16,168 bases of DNA from CBDUXP01 sp965371225 [NCBI: uncultured bacterium] (GTDB lineage: Bacteria > Abyssobacteria > SURF-5 > CBDUXP01): contig CBDUXP010000080.1 of assembly GCA_965371225.1 (NCBI GenBank), positions 1 to 16,168 of the forward strand, given 5' to 3'. The translations under genes and the position numbers were made by a program. The stretch's first letter is position 1; every line of letters begins with the position of its first letter. Below, in pieces: positions 1 to 15,918 of the stretch. The notes under the pieces are model-generated. The model ran no database searches. It was not told the DNA's origin and saw only the letters and a program-made list of their open reading frames with translations.

Positions 1-1785
1 TGCAGGCGATGGTGGAGAACTCGCCGACGAACGTGCTCATGGCCGACGCGGACCTGAACATCACGTACGCGAACCCGGCGTCCGTCGAGACGTTGACGTT
101 CCTGAAAGAGTACCTGCCGGTGCCGGTGGACCAGGTGGTGGGATCGAACATTGACATCTTCCACAAGGACCCGGCGTACCAGCGGAAGATCTTGGCGGAC
201 CCGAAGAACTTCCCGATCTCGGCGAAGATTCAGATCGGGCCGGAGATCGCCGATCTGCTGGTAAGCCGGATCACGGATTCGAACGGGAACTACCTCGGGC
301 CCATGGTCACCTGGTCGGTCATCACGGAGAAGGAGCAACTGGAGACGGAGCAGGCCCGGGTGCAGGCGATGGTGGAGAACTCGCCGACGAACGTGATCAT
401 GGCCGACACGGACCTGAACATCATGTACATGAACCCGGCGTCCCTGGCCACCCTGAAGACGTTGCAAGAGTACCTGCCGGTGTCGGTGGACCAGGTGGTG
501 GGGTCGAACATCGACATCTTCCACAAGGACCCGGCGTACCAGCGGAAGCTGCTGGCGGATCCGAAGAACTTCCCGATCCAGGCGAACATTCAGATCGGCC
601 CGGAGGTGGCTAACCTGCTCGTGAGCCGGATCGAGGATCTGAAAGGGAACTACCTCGGGCCCATGGTCACCTGGGAGGTGATCACGGAGAAGCTCAAGCT
701 GCAGACGGAACAGGCCCGGGTGCAGGCGATGGTGGAGAACTCGCCGACGAACGTGCTCATGGCCGACGCGGACCTGAACATCACGTACGCGAACCCGGCG
801 TCCGTCGAGACGTTGAAGTTCCTGCAGGAGTACCTGCCGGTGCCGGTAGACCAGGTGGTGGGGTCGAATATCGACATCTTCCACAAGGACCCGGCGTACC
901 AGCGGAAGATCTTGGCGGACCCGTCGAACTTCCCGATCCAGGCGAACATTCAGATCGGCCCGGAAGTGGCGGAACTGCTCGTCAGCCGGATCAACGACGA
1001 CAAGGGTAATTACCTCGGGCCCATGGTCACCTGGTCGGTCATCACGGAGAAGCTCAAGCTGCAGAGCGAACAGGAACGGCTGCAGGCGATGGTGGAGAAT
1101 TCGCCGACGAACGTGATGATGGCCGACACGGACCTGAACATCACGTACGCGAACCCCGCCTCCATGGCCACGCTCCGGACCTTGCAGGAGTACCTGCCGA
1201 TCCCCGTGGACCAAGTGCTGGGCGCCAACATTGACATCTTCCACAAGGACCCGGCGTACCAGCGGAAGATCTTGGCGGACCCGAAGAACTTCCCGATCCA
1301 GGCGAACATTCAGATCGGCCCGGAGGTGGCCGACCTGCTCGTGAGCCGGATCAGCGATAACGAAGGGAACTACCTCGGGCCCATGGTCACGTGGACGGTC
1401 ATCACGGAAAAGCTGAAGATGGAGACGGAGCAGGCGCGGATCACCGCCATGGTGGAGAATTCGCCGACGAACGTGTTGATGGCCGACATCGACCTGAACA
1501 TCACGTACGCGAACCCCGCCTCCGTGGCCACGCTCCGGACCTTGCAGGAGTACCTGCCGATCCCCGTGGCCCAGGTCGTTGGTTCCAGCATCGACATCTT
1601 CCACAAGGATCCGGCGTACCAGCGGCGGATCCTGGCGGACGCGTCGAACTTCCCGATCTCGGCGCAGATTCAGATCGGGCCGGAGACGGCCGACCTCCTG
1701 GTCAGCCGGATCAACGACCAGCACGGGAACTATCTCGGGCCCATGGTCACGTGGACGGTCATCACGGCGAAGCTCTCTCTGGAAC
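1..1785 (+). repeat. Five tandem 360-bp repeats encoding PAS domains
   Basis: Units begin at 1, 361, 721, 1081 and 1441, with an exact 360-bp period and no length change, so the reading frame is kept. Identity is very high: bases 1-60 of unit 1 and 721-780 of unit 3 are identical, and units 4 and 5 share nearly identical blocks at 1141-1200 and 1501-1560. The pattern is mosaic. Units 1 and 3 resemble each other in the first half, while the block ATCCAGGCGAACATTCAGAT is shared by units 2, 3 and 4. This fits recent duplication with exchange between units. The fifth unit diverges after about 1780, where the signalling helix begins. The array runs off the left edge. Confidence 0.97.
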
Positions 1786-2576
1786 GGCAGGTCGGCCAGG
1801 CGGCCGAGACCTTGGCCTCCTCGTCTGAGGAACTGACGGCCGTCAATACGCAGATGAGTTCGAATGCGGAAGAGACGGCTACGCAGGCTAATGCGGTCTC
1901 CGCGGCGGCCGAGCAAATGAGCAAGAACGTGGAAACGGTGGCCACGGGCGCAGAGGAGTTGAGCGCCAGCATCAAGGAGATCGCGGCCAACGCGACGGAA
2001 GCGGCCAAGGTGGCTCAGGAAGCGGTGGACATGGCCGAGTCCACGAATGCGACCATGAGCAGCCTGGACCAAAGCAGCGCGGAGGTCGGCAAAGTGATCA
2101 AGGTGATTACCTCGATCGCCGAGCAGACGAATCTCCTGGCCCTCAACGCCACGATCGAAGCGGCCCGCGCCGGGGAAGCCGGCAAGGGGTTCGCGGTGGT
2201 GGCCAATGAGGTGAAGGAGCTGGCCAAGGAAACCGCCAAGGCCACGGAGGATATCGGTGAGAAGATCGAATCCATCCAGGCCGACACCCGGGGCGCGGTC
2301 GATGCGATCGGCGCCATCGGGGGCATCATTAACCAGATCAACGACATCCAGAACACCATCGCGGGTGCGGTGGAGGAGCAGACCGCCACTACGGGTGAGA
2401 TCGGCAGGAACATCAGCGAAGCGGCCAAGGGTGCCGCCGATATTGCCGAGAACATCACCTCCGTCGCGACCGCGGCCCAGAACACGACCGAGGGCGTGAC
2501 GCAGGCCATGAGCGCGACCACCACGCTGGCCAAGCTGGCCGCGGAACTGACGGCGCTGCTCGCCAAGTCCGAATAA
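3..2576 (+). CDS. Soluble methyl-accepting chemotaxis protein with five or more tandem PAS domains (5' partial)
   Basis: Cytoplasmic chemoreceptor that would sense a ligand or redox signal through PAS domains and control a CheA kinase. The visible 857 residues hold five PAS units of exactly 120 residues each (about residues 1-590). Each opens with MVENSPTNV and contains [18 protein letters not shown] and YLGPMVTW, and they are joined by short charged helices. A coiled-coil signalling domain follows (about 600-855), with the conserved hairpin tip [19 protein letters not shown] near residues 705-725. I see no transmembrane segment and no HAMP domain, so the receptor is probably soluble. There is no CheR-docking pentapeptide at the C-terminus, which ends LLAKSE. 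The frame is open through the window start (codons RVQAM precede the equivalent ATG in later repeats), so the ATG at 9 is not the true start and more PAS copies may lie upstream. The ligand is unknown. Confidence 0.95.
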
Positions 2577-8303: not shown

Positions 8304-9449
8304 TCAGGAGAGCCAGGCGACGGCGTTCAGTTGGTCGAACGCCAATCCCCAGGGCGGCCGCAGGAATCCGAGCGCCCGCACGTCCTGGGCCCAGCCACTG
8401 AAGGGCGCGCTCCGCGAGAACGTCCCGCCGCCGAGCACCTTGCAGATGCGCCCGAGCAGCGCCTCGGCCAGCTCCGCGATCACAGTCTTCGCCCGCAGAG
8501 AGGTGGGCAGGAGAAACGCCTCTGTTTCCGTAGCGCGCAGCATGCCCGCGTAGGCCTGCTGGATGAGCCAGGCATCGTTCTGCGCGCGGATCCACTCCAC
8601 CTGTTCGTACGGGCGGAGCGCGTCGCTGCGCGGGGCGAGCTTCGCCTGCGCCGCCGCGACCGCATTCTCCACGACGCCGACGATCACCGCGGTGAAGAGA
8701 CAGTTCGCAAAGGCGCCGCATTGGGGTGCGAGTTGCGCCACCTGGCCGGGCCACGCGATGCGCGTGGCGGGAAACCCCTCAAACCGGAACGCGTGGCTTT
8801 GCGTCGCGCACATCCCGTGCCCGTCCCATTCCCGCAGGAGCGTGACGCCGGTCGACCCGTCCCAGGGTGCGCCGCGCATCTCGACGAAAAAGAGGTCCGG
8901 TACCTGTTCCTCCTCCACGACCGCCGTGGTGGTCATGAACGCGGACACGCCCGACCCGCTGCCAAAGTGCTTCTCGCCCGTCAAGCGGTAGGGGCCGTCT
9001 GCCCCGTCCCGCCGCGCGACGGCGCGGGTTTTCATGATGTCCCCGCCGCTGCCCGGTTCACTCGTGATCGTGCCCCAGAGGGCGCCCTCGCGGACACTGT
9101 CGAATACCTGCGTGCGCTGTGCGCGCCAGGCCGCCGTATCGGGTTCGGGCACCTCCTCCGTGCACAGCCAGAAGCTCAGCACCGCCGGATGCATGGCGCA
9201 GACGAGCGCGACGGATGGATCGCCGTGCGCGAGGGTCCGGAGGATTTCGCACGTGGGGCGCGTGGAGGCGGCGAAGCTTTCGAACAGGCCGCCCTCCGCA
9301 ACCGGCAGGCCGACTCCCAGGTAGCCTGCGTCGCGCACGCGCGCGAAATCCGCTTCTTCTAAGTGCCGGCGCTGTTGGCGCTCCACGTGCTGCGTGGCGA
9401 ACTCGGCGGCCACGGTGTGAATCCGGTCGAGAACAGTCGGTGCGTCCAT
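8304..9449 (-). CDS. Acyl-CoA dehydrogenase-fold flavoprotein without the usual catalytic glutamate
   Basis: A 381-aa protein of the acyl-CoA dehydrogenase superfamily. Family landmarks: an N-terminal helical domain (about 1-120), the flavin/substrate segment ITSEPGSGGD at 128-137, LTGEKHFGSGSG at 156-167 in the beta domain, and a C-terminal four-helix domain with GRICKVLGGGTFSR. At the place where medium-chain enzymes carry the catalytic base in YEGT, this protein has PPWGL, with W367 in the glutamate position. I also see no glutamate at the isovaleryl-CoA dehydrogenase alternative site. It may be a class D flavin monooxygenase of this fold or a non-classical dehydrogenase. The ATG at 9449 has no clear Shine-Dalgarno. 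The neighbouring LLM and crotonase genes fit a small catabolic locus. Confidence 0.88.
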   Translation of the reverse strand: MDAPTVLDRIHTVAAEFATQHVERQQRRHLEEADFARVRDAGYLGVGLPVAEGGLFESFAASTRPTCEILRTLAHGDPSVALVCAMHPAVLSFWLCTEEVPEPDTAAWRAQRTQVFDSVREGALWGTITSEPGSGGDIMKTRAVARRDGADGPYRLTGEKHFGSGSGVSAFMTTTAVVEEEQVPDLFFVEMRGAPWDGSTGVTLLREWDGHGMCATQSHAFRFEGFPATRIAWPGQVAQLAPQCGAFANCLFTAVIVGVVENAVAAAQAKLAPRSDALRPYEQVEWIRAQNDAWLIQQAYAGMLRATETEAFLLPTSLRAKTVIAELAEALLGRICKVLGGGTFSRSAPFSGWAQDVRALGFLRPPWGLAFDQLNAVAWLS

Positions 9450-9569: not shown

Positions 9570-10700
9570 CTAGCGCTGGTACACCTGTCCCTTGACGCTG
9601 GTGGGGATGAGTGAGTCGATGCCGCCCAACCCCGAACCGTCATACTTCTGCACGAACGTCTGGGATGCCGCGCCCAACTGATTCGCCAGGCCGGCGCTGA
9701 TGGAGGTGGACGTGTCGACGCTGGCGGGGACGGCGTTCACCGCGGCCGACAGTTCCGGCACGTTCACGGCTCCCAGGGCCTGGGTGAGGTTCCCGCGCGC
9801 GCGGTTGACCCGCTCGATCATGGCCTGATGGAAGGTGCCGCCCGTCTCCTTCACGCCCGCGATGTTGCGCAGGCTGTACTCCAGATCGACCATCTGGCCG
9901 ACGAGATAGAGGCGGCGGCGCTGGTTGGCCGTCGCCGGGCGGTTGGTCGGCGCATCCGGCGCACCGGCCGACGTGGCGAAGCTATGGCGGATTTCGCCCT
10001 GGCTCCAGGAGACCAGCTCGAACTCCTGGCTGCTGGCCAAATGCTGCCCCGTGTTCACGATCTGCTCGTTGGGAACGGTGTGGCACCCGAAGCAGTTCGT
10101 CGCGATATCGTAAATCCGGCTGGAGTGGATCATGCCTTTGGCTTCGGCCACTTTCAGCCGCGCGCCCCGCGCCGCCGGGCTGCCCTTCTTCCCTTCGCCC
10201 CACTGGATGGTCTGGCCGTTGGGATCGCCCCCCACCTTGTTGTGTATATCGTTCCAGTCCTTCGCGGGGCCGTGGCAAGATTCGCAGGACGCGCCCCACG
10301 TAGCCGACAGTTTCCCGTTGGGTTTCACGATGTTCGTATAGTGGCATTGGCGGCATTGGCCGGCGCGCTTCATGCTGCGCTGCCCCATGTTCGCCAGCAC
10401 CGTCTTCGCTTTCGGCGAGCGATGGCGGTCCTTGAAGGTGGCGTAATGCCGCGTATGGAGCCAGGCTTCGTGTTCCAGCGCGTGACAGGTGGCGCAGTTG
10501 TTGTCGAACTTCTCCGGCCCGACGATCTTCGCGGCCCGCGCCATCTCTTGCGCTTCGGTCAGCCCGGCGACCGCCTCCGCAGACGCCGTCCGCTGCGTCA
10601 CGAGGCCCAGGCCGCCCAGCACCAGACCCGCGACCAGCGTGCGCCCGAGGACCGAGCCGGGACGCCGTCCGCCCGTCCTCGCCATACCTTGCTGTTTCAT
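9570..10700 (-). CDS. Tetrahaem c-type cytochrome, cytochrome c554-like, exported
   Basis: A 376-aa periplasmic or outer-surface electron carrier. A signal peptide (about 16-42, hydrophobic core TLVAGLVLGGLGLV, likely cleavage at ASA-EA) precedes four haem-binding CXXCH motifs: CATCH 69-73, CRQCH 116-120, CESCH 139-143 and CFGCH 203-207. Extra histidines in the same half (for example HTRHY after the first motif) are likely distal ligands. The arrangement resembles the cytochrome c554 family, with a haem-free C-terminal helical part (about 230-376, including LYLVGQMVDLEYSLR) that I have seen in other multihaem proteins. The ATG at 10700 is chosen because GAAGGG lies just upstream. Longer in-frame extensions are antisense to the beta-barrel gene and look non-coding. 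It is the last gene of the cytochrome/beta-barrel cluster, 61 bp after the porin. Confidence 0.9.
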   Translation of the reverse strand: MKQQGMARTGGRRPGSVLGRTLVAGLVLGGLGLVTQRTASAEAVAGLTEAQEMARAAKIVGPEKFDNNCATCHALEHEAWLHTRHYATFKDRHRSPKAKTVLANMGQRSMKRAGQCRQCHYTNIVKPNGKLSATWGASCESCHGPAKDWNDIHNKVGGDPNGQTIQWGEGKKGSPAARGARLKVAEAKGMIHSSRIYDIATNCFGCHTVPNEQIVNTGQHLASSQEFELVSWSQGEIRHSFATSAGAPDAPTNRPATANQRRRLYLVGQMVDLEYSLRNIAGVKETGGTFHQAMIERVNRARGNLTQALGAVNVPELSAAVNAVPASVDTSTSISAGLANQLGAASQTFVQKYDGSGLGGIDSLIPTSVKGQVYQR

Positions 10701-10761
10701 CGCACCCTTCTTTCCCAGTATCGTGCCCAGGTCGCGCAGCGGCCCGGCCGGCGTCGGCTGC

Positions 10762-12339
10762 TTAGAACGCGTACCGCAGTTCCACGCGCGAGCCCCAGCC
10801 CTCATCGCGCGCCTCGGCGACGGAGCCGTGCAAATCCAACTGCAGCAGCACGCGTTGGCCGAACGCCTGCTGATAGCGCAGGGACAGCGCGCCCACGCCC
10901 GCGTTGATATCGTTCGTGTCCTTCCGCCAGCCCAACTCGGCGAGGAGACTCTTGCGGAATCCATGGTCCAGGAACCACTGGTAGCCCACTGCGCCGCCGA
11001 CCACATCCTGGGCGAAGTTCGGCACGGGCGCGGCGAACCGGCCGAGCCCCTGCCCGGCGAAGTTGATCCCCGCACGGCCCATGGGGCCGCCCGTGCCCGG
11101 CATGCGCGCCGCGGGCGTGTAATTGTCGATGGCCCAGAACAGGGTCCCGTACAGCAGGTTCTCGGTCCAGGCCGGCGTGTACGACGCTTCCGCGAAGAGC
11201 ACGACCCCGTCGTCCAGCACGGAGGACGGCGCCATGCCTTTCGGGATGCGGTCATCCAAGGCGTGCGACATGACGGCGCGGAAGGCCGTCTGGACCTTGC
11301 CGATGCGCTGCACAAAGCTCAACCCCGCGTAGATCCCGTCCGTATCCGGATCCTCCATTGCGAAATCGTTGTCCCCTTCGTCGTACACGTACACCACGTC
11401 GAAATTCACCGTCGTCGCGGTAAAGTCCGCGATGACCGACCAGAGGAACAGGTGGGTGTCATCCACCTCCATGTTGTTGCCCCGGTTGATCTCGTCCCAG
11501 GCCCAGAGGAATGACAGTTGCAGGTTCTGGCCGTACGGAAACGCGATCTGGTTCTTCGTGATGCCGAAAGCATCCATGGTGTCGAAAATGAGGATGCCTT
11601 CCTGGAAGAAGAGCGGCTGGCGGCCCACGACCACATGGATGTCCAGCGGCGACTGGTCGCGCATGTCCAGGTTCGGGATCAGCTCGGCGAGTTCGGCCTC
11701 GAAGAACAGCGACGTGATGTCCGCATTGAAGTGGTTGGTGGAATCGGTATCGAACCCCCGGTTGTCGGGCCGGAAGTTGTATCCCGAGAACTGCCCCGTA
11801 GTGGGATTCGCGGAGGGAAAATTGTCGTCCAGCGGCCGCATGCCCACCACGATCCGCTCCGTCGAGTTCGTGAGCTTGATATTCGCGAAGATGTCCAGCC
11901 GATTGGCGTACTCCGAGAACACGATGTCCCCGTTGTCGAACGATTGCACCGCGGTGCGGTACAGGCCCGAGACGAGGATCGACGGCTGCAACACGCCGCC
12001 ACCCGGCAATTCCAACCCGCGTCGGATGTTCCCCGTCCCCACGAAGCGATCCCCGATCTCGAGGCGCAGCGGGCGGTCGGGCACGGCCTCCGGATCCACG
12101 GTGGGCACGAACTCATCGGAAATGCGGCTGGTCCGCGCGCCCGGCGGCCCGAAGGGGTAATACCCGAGCGTCTTGAACCACTCCCAGGGATGCCACTCCC
12201 CGTCCCCCTCCACCTCGCCGTGGTGCGCATCCTCCTCCGCAAAGGCCGGCAGCCCTGCCGGGCCAGCCAGGCAGATGGCGGCGGTCACGAGGGCGCAAAA
12301 CAGCCCCCCCCGTACGCGTGTGCTCCCCGTCTCCCTCAT
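10762..12339 (-). CDS. Outer-membrane beta-barrel (porin-like) protein in the cytochrome cluster
   Basis: A 525-aa predicted outer-membrane protein. A signal peptide (core GGLFCALVTAAICLAGPAG, likely cleavage at AFA-EED) is followed by a short His- and Trp-containing stretch (AHHGEVEGDGEWHPWEWF) and then many alternating-residue beta strands separated by Asn/Asp/Gly loops. The protein ends RVELRYAF with a terminal phenylalanine, the usual sorting signal of outer-membrane barrels. The ATG at 12339 is preferred to that at 12369: it has AGGA 8 nt upstream and gives a normal-length signal peptide, though a 535-aa form is possible. It carries no CXXCH motif. Lying between cytochrome genes, it is a candidate sheath for a haem chain across the outer membrane, or simply a co-expressed porin. 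It is shorter than MtrB/PioB-type barrels as I recall them. Confidence 0.85.
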   Translation of the reverse strand: MRETGSTRVRGGLFCALVTAAICLAGPAGLPAFAEEDAHHGEVEGDGEWHPWEWFKTLGYYPFGPPGARTSRISDEFVPTVDPEAVPDRPLRLEIGDRFVGTGNIRRGLELPGGGVLQPSILVSGLYRTAVQSFDNGDIVFSEYANRLDIFANIKLTNSTERIVVGMRPLDDNFPSANPTTGQFSGYNFRPDNRGFDTDSTNHFNADITSLFFEAELAELIPNLDMRDQSPLDIHVVVGRQPLFFQEGILIFDTMDAFGITKNQIAFPYGQNLQLSFLWAWDEINRGNNMEVDDTHLFLWSVIADFTATTVNFDVVYVYDEGDNDFAMEDPDTDGIYAGLSFVQRIGKVQTAFRAVMSHALDDRIPKGMAPSSVLDDGVVLFAEASYTPAWTENLLYGTLFWAIDNYTPAARMPGTGGPMGRAGINFAGQGLGRFAAPVPNFAQDVVGGAVGYQWFLDHGFRKSLLAELGWRKDTNDINAGVGALSLRYQQAFGQRVLLQLDLHGSVAEARDEGWGSRVELRYAF

Positions 12340-12440
12340 AATGCTCGTCCTACTCGGGTGCGGCGCCATACGGCTTCCAGGCCCCCCCGGCCCCGCGCCC
12401 GCGATTGTGGGAGTGCTCTCCCTAGTCCACAGCCATCCTC
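12340..12440. other. Spacer between the pentahaem and beta-barrel genes
   Basis: 101 bp without a gene. A weak hairpin, GGGAG/CTCCC with a 4-nt loop (12409-12422), lies just past the pentahaem stop, with no T-run. Read-through into the beta-barrel gene is therefore likely. Confidence 0.4.
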
Positions 12441-14321
12441 TTACTCACCGGACGCGGTGGGGGCCGCCTCGGCCTCGGCCCGCCCGCCGCCGGCATGCAC
12501 GTGGAAAAGCAGTTCCCGTTCCCACACCACCTGGTGCCCCGCCACGAGCGCCGTGGAGGCGGCGCGCGCGCTAATGCCGTAATCGAAGCCCACGTGCCGG
12601 ATGGCGTTCAGCAGGTTCACCGGCGCCATGGCGGCTTTGAGTTCGATGTGGGCGGTGTAGGGCCCCTTGCCCGTCAGATCGCGGCCGGGGATCTTGTACT
12701 TGCCCCACCGGGACGCGCCCGGCTGGAGCCCCTGCCGATGCTTGCGCGCGCCGAAGTGGCGCCCGATCAGGGCGCTCGACCGGCGCTCCGGCTGCAAGAA
12801 CCGCAGCGCCGTCAAGGTGATCGGCACGGCCAGCACGCGCTCCTGCTCGGGGCCGCGCACGCTGAAGGTCAGGAAGCGCCCCTGGAGGCTGAACAAACTC
12901 TTGTCCAGCGGCAGTTCGCCGTTGTGCACGTAGAGGGAATGCGTGTCGCGCAGGTCGCCGTTGGGATCCAGGTCGCCGGACTCGAAGATGGTGGTGCCCT
13001 CGGCGTCCGTCACCCACACGTGAATCCACACCAGCCGCTCCGCATCGAAGCCCGTGGGCACGTTATGCCCATCAGTGCCGCTGGCCAGCTTGATGCGCCA
13101 GGCCAGCCCCCGCTCGTCGGCCCGGTCGATCACCATGTCGTCGATGAGGTACGCCGTCCGGAAGAGCTTGATGCGCTCAGCCGCGATGAGGTCCAGCAGT
13201 TCCTGGTTTTCCTCGACGATCGCCCGCGCGTCGTACCGGTCGTCGATCGAGGCCCAGCGTTCCGGGAACTCGTCATCGTCGGGCTCCGTGTCTTCGAAAT
13301 CGTCCGTGCCCCAGCCGGCCGCCACGTCGAATTCCAGCCATTCGCGGATCGTGGCCAACCCCCGCGCCGTCGGGTCGTCCTTCTCGTCCTCCTCCTTGAT
13401 CGCCAGGATGTTCAGCGGGAACAAGGCCGGCGGCAACACGGAGTAGTCGGGCCCCACAAACATGTGGTTGGTGAGTTTGCGCGGCGCGGTCTTGATGCTG
13501 CCCACCACCGCGGCGGGCCCCCACGCGTAGTTCAACCGCTCGAAGTCCGGATGCAGCGGATGCGCCAGGGTCTTACCCGGCTCCTTGCCCATGTGGCAGT
13601 CCTGGCAGGAGACGTTGTTCCGGGCCGCCGGGGAGTTCTTCCATTCACTGAAGGCGTCCTCGAGCCGGAACCCGTTGAGTTCCACCACGTCGTGGCAGGA
13701 GCCGCAGAAGCCGCTGGTCCGCATGGCCGGCAATTCGCGCACTTCCCCGTGCACCTGCCGCCCCGCCTTGTTCGGGTCGGTGATCAGCCCCCCCTCCTTG
13801 ATGACGCGCTGCAGTTCCGCGTTGTTCCCTGTCGGGCCGTAGATGGGGGCGGTGAGGGGCCCTTCCACGAGCGCTAACCGGCCGGAAATCTTGCCGTACG
13901 TCTGGCTGACGCGGTGGCAGACCACGCAGGTGACCCCCTCGCGCGAGGTGGGGTACCGGTCGATGTTGCTCATGAACTCGCGTTCGCGCAGGTTCATGCC
14001 CACCGGCGTATGGCAGCGGATGCAGAAGTCGCCCAGGGTCCCGTTGGTCAGCTGGCTGAGGGTGCCCTGCATCGCATTGAACACGGGGCTCATCTGCGCG
14101 TAGGCGTGTTGGGAGATGGACCACTCGCGGTATTGCTGCGGGTGGCATTCGCCACAAGTGGTGGCCGACGGGTATCGGTCGGCGGGATCCACCGCCGGCG
14201 CATCCGCCGCCCCCGCGGCCGGCGCCCAACACAGCAGCGCGGCCACGAGCCCCAAGATCGAGATGTATCGAGTCCCGCGATCAGACGCGCAGGAAGTGCC
14301 CCACCGAATAGAGATACTCAC
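12441..14321 (-). CDS. Pentahaem c-type cytochrome with a large haem-free C-terminal domain
   Basis: A 626-aa exported multihaem protein. The signal peptide core is ISILGLVAALLCWAPAAGA, cleaved near GA-AD. Five CXXCH motifs follow in the N-terminal 245 residues: CGECH 56-60, CIRCH 100-104, CVVCH 132-136, CGSCH 206-210 and CQDCH 239-243. The first is followed by the c554-type EWSISQHAYAQM context, whose histidine is a likely distal ligand. The remaining ~380 residues have no CXXCH. They include a strongly acidic stretch (EEDEKDD; DDFEDTEPDDDEF) and a beta-rich domain beginning HNVPTGFDAERLVWIHVWV. The start is GTG at 14321, set by the very strong AGGAGGGGGG at 14328-14337; the longer in-frame start at 14342 would put this Shine-Dalgarno inside the gene. 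Expected to pass electrons within the periplasm or at the outer surface. I know no exact named homologue. Confidence 0.88.
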   Translation of the reverse strand: MSISIRWGTSCASDRGTRYISILGLVAALLCWAPAAGAADAPAVDPADRYPSATTCGECHPQQYREWSISQHAYAQMSPVFNAMQGTLSQLTNGTLGDFCIRCHTPVGMNLREREFMSNIDRYPTSREGVTCVVCHRVSQTYGKISGRLALVEGPLTAPIYGPTGNNAELQRVIKEGGLITDPNKAGRQVHGEVRELPAMRTSGFCGSCHDVVELNGFRLEDAFSEWKNSPAARNNVSCQDCHMGKEPGKTLAHPLHPDFERLNYAWGPAAVVGSIKTAPRKLTNHMFVGPDYSVLPPALFPLNILAIKEEDEKDDPTARGLATIREWLEFDVAAGWGTDDFEDTEPDDDEFPERWASIDDRYDARAIVEENQELLDLIAAERIKLFRTAYLIDDMVIDRADERGLAWRIKLASGTDGHNVPTGFDAERLVWIHVWVTDAEGTTIFESGDLDPNGDLRDTHSLYVHNGELPLDKSLFSLQGRFLTFSVRGPEQERVLAVPITLTALRFLQPERRSSALIGRHFGARKHRQGLQPGASRWGKYKIPGRDLTGKGPYTAHIELKAAMAPVNLLNAIRHVGFDYGISARAASTALVAGHQVVWERELLFHVHAGGGRAEAEAAPTASGE

Positions 14322-14327
14322 AAACTG

Positions 14328-14337
14328 CCCCCCTCCT
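14328..14337 (-). promoter_or_regulatory. Strong Shine-Dalgarno fixing the GTG start of the pentahaem cytochrome
   Basis: The - strand reads AGGAGGGGGG, then CAGTTT, then GTG at 14321. The spacing fits initiation at 14321 and excludes the upstream in-frame GTG at 14342. Confidence 0.7.
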
Positions 14338-14403
14338 GTCACTCAGCGCCGGTACTTTAGCCGAAGCGGGGCGCACCCGACAAGCAGCACGCTCCGCCAC
14401 CCC

Positions 14404-15813
14404 TCACGGCCTACGCGCCAGTTGGCTGGGACCGGCTTCGGGAGGCGGGCCGCCTTCGGGAGGCGGGCTGTGTTGCTCCCAGGCCAGGTGGTACTGGTGG
14501 CACGTCAAACAATCCTGCTTGATAAGGCCCGGGGTATGACAGCGCAGGCACTGCCCCTTGCGGTGGGGCATGAACGCCCGGCTGGCCTGCTCGCCGGCGG
14601 CCTCCGCCTCCGACGCCGCCATCTCATGGCATTCCATGCAGGCGCCCGGCTTCTGCAGCACCATTAAGTGGGGCCGATGCGTGAACGTGGCGTAGCCCGT
14701 GGCGCCGGTTGCGCGCCCTGCCGCCGCCCAGTTGACCCGGGCGCCCTGCGCCGTGCGCTCCATGCTGTGGCACCGCAGGCAGGTGGCGTGCACGTACCCG
14801 CCGGCTTCCTTGGAGGCCAGCACGTCGAAGACCTGCTGGCGCACCTGCGCGCGAAGCACGGTGGCCTCGTCTGCATTGTCCGGCGGGTCCGCCACATGCG
14901 CGGCCAGCGCATCGATCCACCGGCTGAGAAACGGATCCCCGTGGCCCGACGGCCGGTACACCACCGCCACGTCCTCGGGGCTCACGTGCCATCCGGGCGT
15001 GGCGGGGCTCGACTGGTCCGCGACACCCGTCTTGCCCAGGTGGGGCAACCAGCGCCGCTGATAGCCACGCATGGCGAAGCGCGACCAGCCCAACTGTTCC
15101 GCCAGCGCGAGCACCTCCGGCGCACTCGGCGAGGTTCCCAGCGCCGCGGCCAACCGCTGCCGCGTGGCCGCCGCATCGCCCCCCGCCATTTCGCGAACCA
15201 GGCGCAGAAGCGCCTCCTCGAACTGGGTCTCCAACTCTTCGTCGTCCGGCTCCCAGTCCGCGGGGTACCCGTCCGCGTCCTCCGCCAGGCTGCGCAGCGC
15301 CTCCAGGGCCGTGTCGTCTCCCGCGAGGAGCAGGTGCAGCAGCGGCGGCAGCTCTTCTTCGGCGACCCCCACCGTGTTGGCCCAGTGGTCGCTCCCGGTC
15401 CAGAGCAGGGTCGGGAGCTGCACCATGATGAGGGGTTCGGATGCGGTGATCTTCTCCCCGTGATGATCCCCGCGGCCTTGGTAGTGGCAGCCGGCGCACG
15501 ACGCGGCAAACGGCTTCAGGACCATCGCGCGGCCGATGGTGTCGGGCTGGTGGCACCGGGCGCAGGTGAACGCTTGGTCCCCGAAGTGGTCCGTCTTGTG
15601 TGCCCGGTGGTCGAATCGCATGCCCAGCCGTTGGCGCTGGACCCGGCCGAATTCCGGGTGCCCGTCGGGAAAGCCGGCGAACCGTACCCGGTGGCAGACC
15701 TGACAATTCGCGTCAGCCAACCGGGTGAGGTCGAATGACCGGCCCTGGTGCTCCCGGTGGCAGGTGGCGCAGGCTAACCCGCCCCGGGCCGACTGGGTGG
15801 GGGGGCCCGCCAT
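14404..15813 (-). CDS. Multihaem c-type cytochrome, at least eight haems, 5' end uncertain or truncated
   Basis: The part shown (469 aa from the first plausible ATG at 15813) has eight CXXCH motifs in two groups: CATCH 15-19, CQVCH 37-41, CARCH 84-88 and CAGCH 106-110, then CLRCH 345-349, CMECH 392-396, CLRCH 422-426 and CLTCH 435-439. Between them lie ~235 haem-free residues, largely acidic and helical. The C-terminus is Pro-rich. The first motif sits in CATCHREHQG, which in related proteins I recall follows more haems and a signal peptide or anchor. Here no signal peptide precedes it. The frame stays open to 16089, but beyond about 15,905 it is antisense to a convincing glycosyltransferase and looks non-coding. 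The gene therefore probably lacks its true 5' end. It lies 82 bp upstream of the pentahaem gene on the same strand. Confidence 0.82.
   Translation of the reverse strand: MAGPPTQSARGGLACATCHREHQGRSFDLTRLADANCQVCHRVRFAGFPDGHPEFGRVQRQRLGMRFDHRAHKTDHFGDQAFTCARCHQPDTIGRAMVLKPFAASCAGCHYQGRGDHHGEKITASEPLIMVQLPTLLWTGSDHWANTVGVAEEELPPLLHLLLAGDDTALEALRSLAEDADGYPADWEPDDEELETQFEEALLRLVREMAGGDAAATRQRLAAALGTSPSAPEVLALAEQLGWSRFAMRGYQRRWLPHLGKTGVADQSSPATPGWHVSPEDVAVVYRPSGHGDPFLSRWIDALAAHVADPPDNADEATVLRAQVRQQVFDVLASKEAGGYVHATCLRCHSMERTAQGARVNWAAAGRATGATGYATFTHRPHLMVLQKPGACMECHEMAASEAEAAGEQASRAFMPHRKGQCLRCHTPGLIKQDCLTCHQYHLAWEQHSPPPEGGPPPEAGPSQLARRP
14436..14468 (-). repeat. Two direct copies of a 15-bp motif, 18-bp period
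   Basis: CTTCGGGAGGCGGGC occurs at 14436-14450 and again at 14454-14468. On the coding (-) strand it makes the Pro-rich tail PPPEGGPPPEAG of the octahaem cytochrome. A small in-frame expansion at the C-terminus. Confidence 0.7.
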
Positions 15814-15918
15814 GGCCGCGAGGGTGAGCGCCGGCCGCGCGCGGCTCCCGACGCGCCCCGCCCGGGCGGGGGACAGCTCCCCCAACCGGGCCGGGTCCCC
15901 GCAAAGAGGGAGCCGCGC

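Follow-up and report, generated by a model that had tools for sequence, protein, structure and literature searches.

The window analysed here is a 16,168-nucleotide stretch of DNA from an uncultured bacterium of the Abyssobacteria (CBDUXP01 sp965371225, contig CBDUXP010000080.1). On its minus strand it carries four consecutive genes, which encode a truncated decahaem cytochrome, a pentahaem cytochrome, a haem-free outer-membrane beta-barrel and a tetrahaem cytochrome. The pentahaem and barrel genes form a fixed pair in distant bacterial groups, and at many loci this pair is linked to genes for a putative inner-membrane redox module. We give a probability of about one half to the following reading. 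The window would hold the outer part of a trans-envelope electron conduit, encoded by a cluster common to several distant bacterial groups. Electrons from NAD(P)H would cross the inner membrane by a module resembling NADPH oxidase (NOX) and leave the cell through the pentahaem cytochrome and the barrel.

The pentahaem-barrel pair

The four genes are separated by gaps of 61, 71 and 61 bp (Table 1). The minus strand contains 17 CXXCH motifs, 8, 5 and 4 in the three cytochromes and none outside their frames; the plus strand of the whole window contains none. Codon-block shuffling of the interval gave a mean of 0.195 CXXCH over six frames (200 shuffles), and a second set of 200 shuffles never gave more than 2. 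The reading made earlier from the sequence alone (hereafter the sequence-only reading) described four co-directional genes with 17 haem motifs, and this description stands. The 525 residues that it gave to the barrel apply if translation starts at the second ATG.

Table 1 Features of the window and of related loci
Feature	Locus	Position	Strand	Remark
Decahaem C-terminal part (last eight haems), membrane-anchored cytochrome	window	14404..15813	-	8 CXXCH + homology
Pentahaem cytochrome, PHC (ExtKL / Tt c552) family	window	12441..14342	-	633 aa from GTG, start codon uncertain
Outer-membrane beta-barrel, haem-free	window	10762..12369	-	535 aa (525 from second ATG), ends in Phe
Tetrahaem c554-like exported cytochrome	window	9570..10700	-	376 aa
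Junction, end of decahaem homology to unrelated plus-strand open reading frame	window	15796..15885	.	deletion, rearrangement or assembly join
Acyl-CoA dehydrogenase, downstream of the four genes	window	8304-9449		weak Pfam match
Chemotaxis receptor	window	9-2576	+	PAS repeats
FHA and Pyr_redox-FHA-2Fe-2S proteins after the decahaem	L084	16178-19562		
same	L092	2362-5819		
same	L093	1712-4676		
same	L094	1965-5097		
Decahaem with cysteine-rich N-terminal stretch	L015	6379-8505		
same	L016	8849-10975		
same	L001	16895-17461		contig-cut
cNMP/4Fe-4S, hypothetical (cytochrome b), cytochrome c3 trio	L088	5705-10880		plasmid pMSHV
Molybdopterin oxidoreductase and NapG/NapH-like ferredoxin genes	L001	3-6407		upstream of cluster

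Outside the window, 39 loci were read. Three of them (L057, L060, L068) are cut off by a contig end at the pentahaem gene or shortly beyond it. In all of the remaining 36 the barrel gene directly follows that of the pentahaem, counting L085, in which only a barrel fragment is left before the contig end. The pentahaem, not the barrel, was the query that found 33 of the 36, and 27 of these were found after the barrel profile had been made. The sequence-only reading had seen a porin-cytochrome conduit in these genes, to be given up if homologues of the barrel never stood near cytochromes. Every barrel homologue found lies beside a pentahaem gene, although the conduit as a whole is only partly supported. 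As a check, the same reading named conservation of the order of all four genes. Conservation extends to the pentahaem-barrel adjacency, but the order of the window, with the decahaem first, was seen at no other locus read.

The first relative comes from a metagenome-assembled genome (MAG) of an uncultured member of the Nitrospinae (L001), with a pentahaem 51%, a barrel 42-43% and a tetrahaem 37% identical to those of the window. Searches of 386 genomes of relatives, scoring the best three or four candidates per genome, gave pentahaem matches at E<=1e-12 in 24: nine are full-length or nearly so (E<1e-60, one of them in two pieces) and 15 are partial. At E<=1e-5 the barrel profile matches exactly the same nine genomes and no others. 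The profile contained rows from these nine, and the force of the co-occurrence lies in the absence of the barrel from the other 377. The barrel is present in 3 of 18 genomes of the phylum of L001. Elsewhere, the pentahaem is found in 24 of 77 genomes of the phylum of G310 (E<=1e-30) and, at E<=1e-60, in 6 of 297 sampled genomes of the phylum of G101, 1 of 2 of that of G305 and 3 of 82 of that of G208. The pair occurs in at least five phylum-level groups, because the phyla of G001, G310, G305 and G208, each listed whole, share none of these genomes and do not list G101; G291 and G154 were left unplaced in this count. A tblastn search of plasmids returned 15 records with the pentahaem, all partial and below 60% identity, and none with the barrel.

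In the PDB the pentahaem has one strong relative, the Thermochromatium tepidum cytochrome c552 (5ZE8; E=4e-11 by sequence, 2e-12 by profile). All five haem motifs align, and they are in register with those of the cable-bacteria pentahaem cytochromes (PHC) as well. The five CXXCH are invariant in the 36 aligned sequences, two cut ones of the 38 being excluded. Identity is 47-58% to 15 of the 19 relatives compared and 32-35% to the remaining four. PF13435 (Cytochrome_C554) matches over the first haem region (E=4e-10), and the long C-terminal part has no Pfam match; as regards the C-terminal immunoglobulin-like domain of the PHC family, residues 406-463 align to 5ZE8 below threshold only. The ExtKL equivalog model NF040886 scores 32 bits, with a cut-off of 250. 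By its five ordered CXXCH and its similarity, the protein is assigned to the PHC family, which includes ExtKL and c552. It differs from the latter in its greater length (435 residues in c552) and in the barrel that adjoins its kin. A 2025 study of cable bacteria (PMC11976967) unites Geobacter ExtKL, GSU2801 and the cable-bacteria proteins in one PHC family. It describes PHC as structurally homologous to c552, and cites earlier work linking c552 to an archaeal cytochrome nanowire.

The barrel belongs to a family without a Pfam name. NCBIfam gives no match at E<=1, and the one match in Pfam (E=0.19) is due to chance. Eight of its relatives have no Pfam match either (P0004 at E<=0.01, the seven others at E<=0.05). 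Identity is 33-43% to 12 of the 16 relatives compared, 23-27% to three and 48% to a fragment. The C-terminal residue of 27 barrels is Phe in 25 and Leu in two.

A predicted inner-membrane module in relatives

At 18 loci the pair is linked to genes for a c554-like tetrahaem, a 4Fe-4S protein that binds cyclic nucleotides (cNMP), a cytochrome b with HX13H pairs, a decahaem and an NAD(P)H-type flavoprotein with a 2Fe-2S centre. All seven genes run in one direction in 12 loci (L015, L016, L051-L055, L058, L061-L063, L065). In L030 and L069 the flavoprotein and the cNMP/4Fe-4S protein form one fused protein, which leaves six genes (from a Pfam scan in L030). Four loci from two other phylum groups (L026, L027, L083, L084) lack the FAD/NAD-2Fe-2S flavoprotein; in its place, after the decahaem, they encode an FHA protein and a Pyr_redox-FHA-2Fe-2S protein. 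Other loci are cut by contig ends (L001, L028, L048, L056, L059, L064, L066, L067) or too short for the module to be judged (L085, L090, L091). A flavoprotein with 2Fe-2S is found in 18 of the 18 loci that show the whole module, and the module with its flavoprotein occurs in four of the at least five groups that carry the pair. Two unrelated kinds of flavoprotein are involved, which looks like one role filled twice over. That both kinds, each with 2Fe-2S, occupy one place is the best indication of NAD(P)H as the partner on the cytoplasmic side.

The domains of the flavoprotein P0007 are FAD_binding_6, NAD_binding_1 and Fer2; P0008 combines cNMP_binding repeats with 4Fe-4S domains. All 22 cytochrome b frames, the fragment of L028 excluded, contain HX13H pairs, at least two in each. 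We take this spacing to be that of ferric reductases and NOX, in which two b haems are stacked. The likeness presumably extends to the FAD/NAD oxidoreductase encoded in the same operon as the membrane protein. It rests on the spacing, the three cytochrome b proteins scanned (L001, L016, L084) having no Pfam match. Unlike in those enzymes, the parts here are separate polypeptides with 2Fe-2S, 4Fe-4S and cNMP domains, and they stand beside a decahaem.

In the conduit that we propose, the cytoplasmic flavoprotein would pass electrons from NAD(P)H through its 2Fe-2S centre to the 4Fe-4S protein with its cyclic-nucleotide-binding domains. From there they would enter the membrane cytochrome b, whose HX13H pairs would carry two stacked b haems, and then the membrane-anchored decahaem in the periplasm. 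The c554-like tetrahaem would shuttle them from the decahaem to the outer membrane, where the pentahaem may dock with or in the barrel, so that a chain of haems could lead to an acceptor outside the cell. The predicted locations and the order of the steps are read from domain content and linkage. As for the window, its organism presumably has the remaining inner-membrane genes.

Outward flow is preferred because it is downhill from NAD(P)H and runs with the membrane potential. The same parts could run in reverse: the barrel and the pentahaem would then take up electrons supplied by Fe(II), Mn(II) or a partner cell, and NAD(P)+ would be reduced. Reaching NAD+ against both redox and membrane potential, by way of a cytochrome b without a pump, would require donors of very low potential. 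We thus consider an inward conduit improbable, even though porin-cytochrome systems have also been proposed in metal oxidisers (PMC9040806).

A more specific form of the outward conduit would be a signal-gated electron valve independent of quinones. A split NOX-like complex would oxidise NAD(P)H, its iron-sulfur subunit would bind cyclic nucleotides (with FHA proteins in two lineages), and electrons would exit by the pentahaem-barrel conduit. Its purpose would be regulated redox balancing, not energy-conserving respiration. This version is tentative, and we rather doubt it.

Comparison with known systems

The closest characterised counterpart is extHIJKL of Geobacter, in which ExtI is described as having 21 transmembrane domains in the outer membrane and ExtKL as being a periplasmic pentahaem (PMC6148476). 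As in the window, the barrel is encoded beside an exported pentahaem of the same family, and the larger ext cluster, to extS, has more multihaem cytochromes and a b-type cytochrome (PMC6148476, PMC5877670). A Geobacter strain left with extHIJKL alone out of five conduit clusters attains 52% of the wild-type level on Fe(III) oxide, where a strain without any of the five attains 0.1%, and 24% on Fe(III) citrate (PMC6148476); a conduit role thus has a degree of genetic support. The differences are several. The window genes have no selenocysteine stop and no Rieske protein was noticed. ExtH is a rhodanese lipoprotein, whereas no rhodanese match is seen in the four window genes or the next downstream gene, the upstream side being cut by the junction. 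A c554-like tetrahaem is present here, and the relatives add the NAD(P)H-type flavoprotein and the cNMP/4Fe-4S protein. No ExtKL locus above cut-off was found in 18 genomes, nor in 4 more, where the controls also gave no match. The sequence-only reading offered the system as a candidate new conduit. Two things were beyond its view: a porin paired with a pentahaem is already known in Geobacter, and the relatives add an NAD(P)H-linked inner-membrane module.

MtrCAB, PioAB and MtoAB likewise combine a barrel and multihaem cytochromes for extracellular electron transfer. The same reading had found no match to the Mtr and Pio systems, and rightly so: no Mtr or Pio model scores above its cut-off, nor does any decahaem of the MtrA/DmsE type. 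For TIGR03508 (MtrA/DmsE-like) the pentahaem scores 36 bits and the decahaem, in its truncated form, 14 bits, with a cut-off of 192. Pfam, as we understand it, includes the MtrB/PioB family, and the window barrel matches no Pfam or NCBIfam family. It is also estimated, roughly, at about 18 strands, unlike MtrB, which has 26 (PMC7198977).

This estimate comes from an alternation count on 33 aligned barrels and is of low confidence. The count is crude: of its 29 raw peaks some stem from the signal peptide, from turns or from loops, and we read the whole as 16-20 strands (about 18). The ideal C-alpha radius would be 16-18 Å at 18 strands, as against 23-26 Å at 26 strands. With the narrower radius a cytochrome domain could therefore enter only partly, or contacts from both sides would be needed.

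A barrel of 16-20 strands would also suit a solute channel, and the pentahaem has a feature that points the same way. Besides the haem motifs only four histidines are invariant in the 36 sequences (H79, H198, H293, H426), and one of the five haems may therefore lack a fixed distal ligand; its site may, to judge from the alignment, be open or variable. The pair could then be a periplasmic reductase with its own porin: the barrel would admit an oxyanion such as selenite or tellurite, and the pentahaem would reduce it with electrons from the inner-membrane module. Loss of ExtI impairs the reduction of selenite and tellurite, not that of Fe(III), and ExtI weakly resembles phosphate-selective porins (PMC5877670). 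We nevertheless judge a reductase to be rather unlikely. The window barrel matches no Pfam porin family, and the fifth ligand could be a non-conserved histidine or another residue. K151 (in YGKISGR), for example, is invariant in the 36 sequences and is a possible axial ligand or substrate contact. The Geobacter strain with extHIJKL as its only conduit cluster still reduces Fe(III) and Mn(IV) oxides (PMC6148476).

To return to the outward conduit, its proposed inner-membrane part can be set beside the known feeders of extracellular electron transfer, which a 2018 survey places in three quinone-linked families (PMC6295460). Like CymA, CbcL and ImcH, the module would supply periplasmic cytochromes with electrons from the inner membrane. 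Those proteins are quinone-linked multihaems (PMC6295460), whereas a flavoprotein of the NAD(P)H type and iron-sulfur proteins are among the products of the genes linked here.

Several observations weigh against such a conduit. A barrel of about 18 strands may not be wide enough to admit a folded multihaem protein, and the cluster showed no cytochrome that would be a surface lipoprotein. AlphaFold2 models from two-row alignments have a confidence score (pLDDT) of 28 for the barrel and 36 for the pentahaem. The window has no other inner-membrane genes and its decahaem is truncated. Seven loci have no inner-membrane genes in line with the pair. L029, L031, L086 and L087 contain pentahaem and barrel only; L047 has the tetrahaem and the cNMP protein on the opposite strand; in L049 the tetrahaem gene is convergent and the stretch read holds no module; L050 has a tetrahaem but no module within 9.6 kb downstream. 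Conversely, plasmid pMSHV of Sphingobium herbicidovorans carries a cNMP/4Fe-4S, hypothetical (cytochrome b) and cytochrome c3 trio; in the 15 kb read, tblastn at E<=1e-3 matches neither pentahaem nor barrel nor tetrahaem. A Geobacter strain that has lost only extHIJKL retains 96% of activity on Fe(III) oxide and 66% on Fe(III) citrate (PMC6148476). A second study ties ExtI to selenite and tellurite reduction, finds it not required for Fe(III) reduction and argues against a porin-cytochrome (Pcc) role (PMC5877670).

If the conduit exists, it would connect a flavoprotein of the NAD(P)H type with a porin-cytochrome pair in the outer membrane. This would be an entry point different from that of the quinone-linked feeders, and a new kind of electron outlet would join the few already known. 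Electron export would also be predicted in further lineages, including that of the uncultured Nitrospinae MAG. To our knowledge, these lineages are not usually counted as electroactive. No description of this cluster was found in the literature searched. Many multihaem neighbourhoods without a name are reported in PMC11475568, whose supplement may include this one.

On pMSHV, the trio adjoins other multihaem and TpsB-like genes.

Decahaem, tetrahaem and neighbouring genes

The first of the four window genes had been described as encoding an at least octahaem protein. Eight CXXCH are indeed visible, but the protein is the C-terminal part of a decahaem: its relatives have 10 CXXCH in 19 of 19 cases, the contig-cut L001, L028 and L064 being excluded. 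The window frame is 31% identical to residues 227-685 of the 708-residue decahaem of L015 and 47% identical, over 116 residues, to that of L028. Relative to these proteins the 5' third of the gene is lost, with the transmembrane helix and the first two haems. Homology starts at about 15795. Upstream of this point the frame lies antisense to an incomplete open reading frame (ORF) of the plus strand, and the gene is therefore truncated or chimeric there. The junction is very GC-rich and leads into this ORF, which runs off the window (region to 16167). Either a genomic break (deletion, rearrangement) or an assembly join accounts for the loss. The ORF has no Pfam match up to E=10; it may encode a TMTC-like membrane protein.

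The decahaem matches the QrcA and GSU2203 models weakly, and the decahaems of L016 and L084 have no match to PF03264 (NapC/NirT), the domain of CymA. In one lineage (L015, L016, L001) a cysteine-rich stretch, probably cytoplasmic, lies ahead of the transmembrane helix; it was not seen in the decahaems of L026, L027, L028 and L030.

The tetrahaem matches PF13435 (E=6e-11) and, by profile, cytochrome c554 in the PDB (1BVB, E=1e-9). Its identity is 34-40% to eight relatives compared and 22% to the tetrahaem of L030. The sequence-only reading was right to call it c554-like. It had also considered a link to nitrogen-compound oxidation, in which the tetrahaem would serve as the cytochrome c554 of a hydroxylamine oxidoreductase (HAO)-like enzyme. 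Despite the two matches this is very improbable. The model of Nitrosomonas c554 (CycA, NF043010) scores 22 bits, with a cut-off of 400, and the gene lists examined hold no further ORF with at least three CXXCH, HAO itself not having been searched for. In L026, L027, L083 and L084 the tetrahaem gene is extended to 7-8 haems by a second c554-like stretch.

Upstream of the cluster in L001 lie molybdopterin oxidoreductase and NapG/NapH-like ferredoxin genes, identified by eye and partly by Pfam; such genes were not noticed at other loci.

Downstream of the four window genes, none of the flanking genes indicates an electron-conduit function. The acyl-CoA dehydrogenase found matches in 3 of 12 genomes, at 28% identity or less, too low to place the window taxonomically. 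Beyond the acyl-CoA dehydrogenase gene, the plus strand encodes a PAS-repeat chemotaxis receptor, CheY-like, CheB and CheR proteins, a luciferase-like monooxygenase and an enoyl-CoA hydratase. The receptor contains about five near-identical PAS repeats of about 120 residues each and is followed by the CheY-like, CheB and CheR genes. A PilZ-like gene, judged by eye, also follows the receptor.

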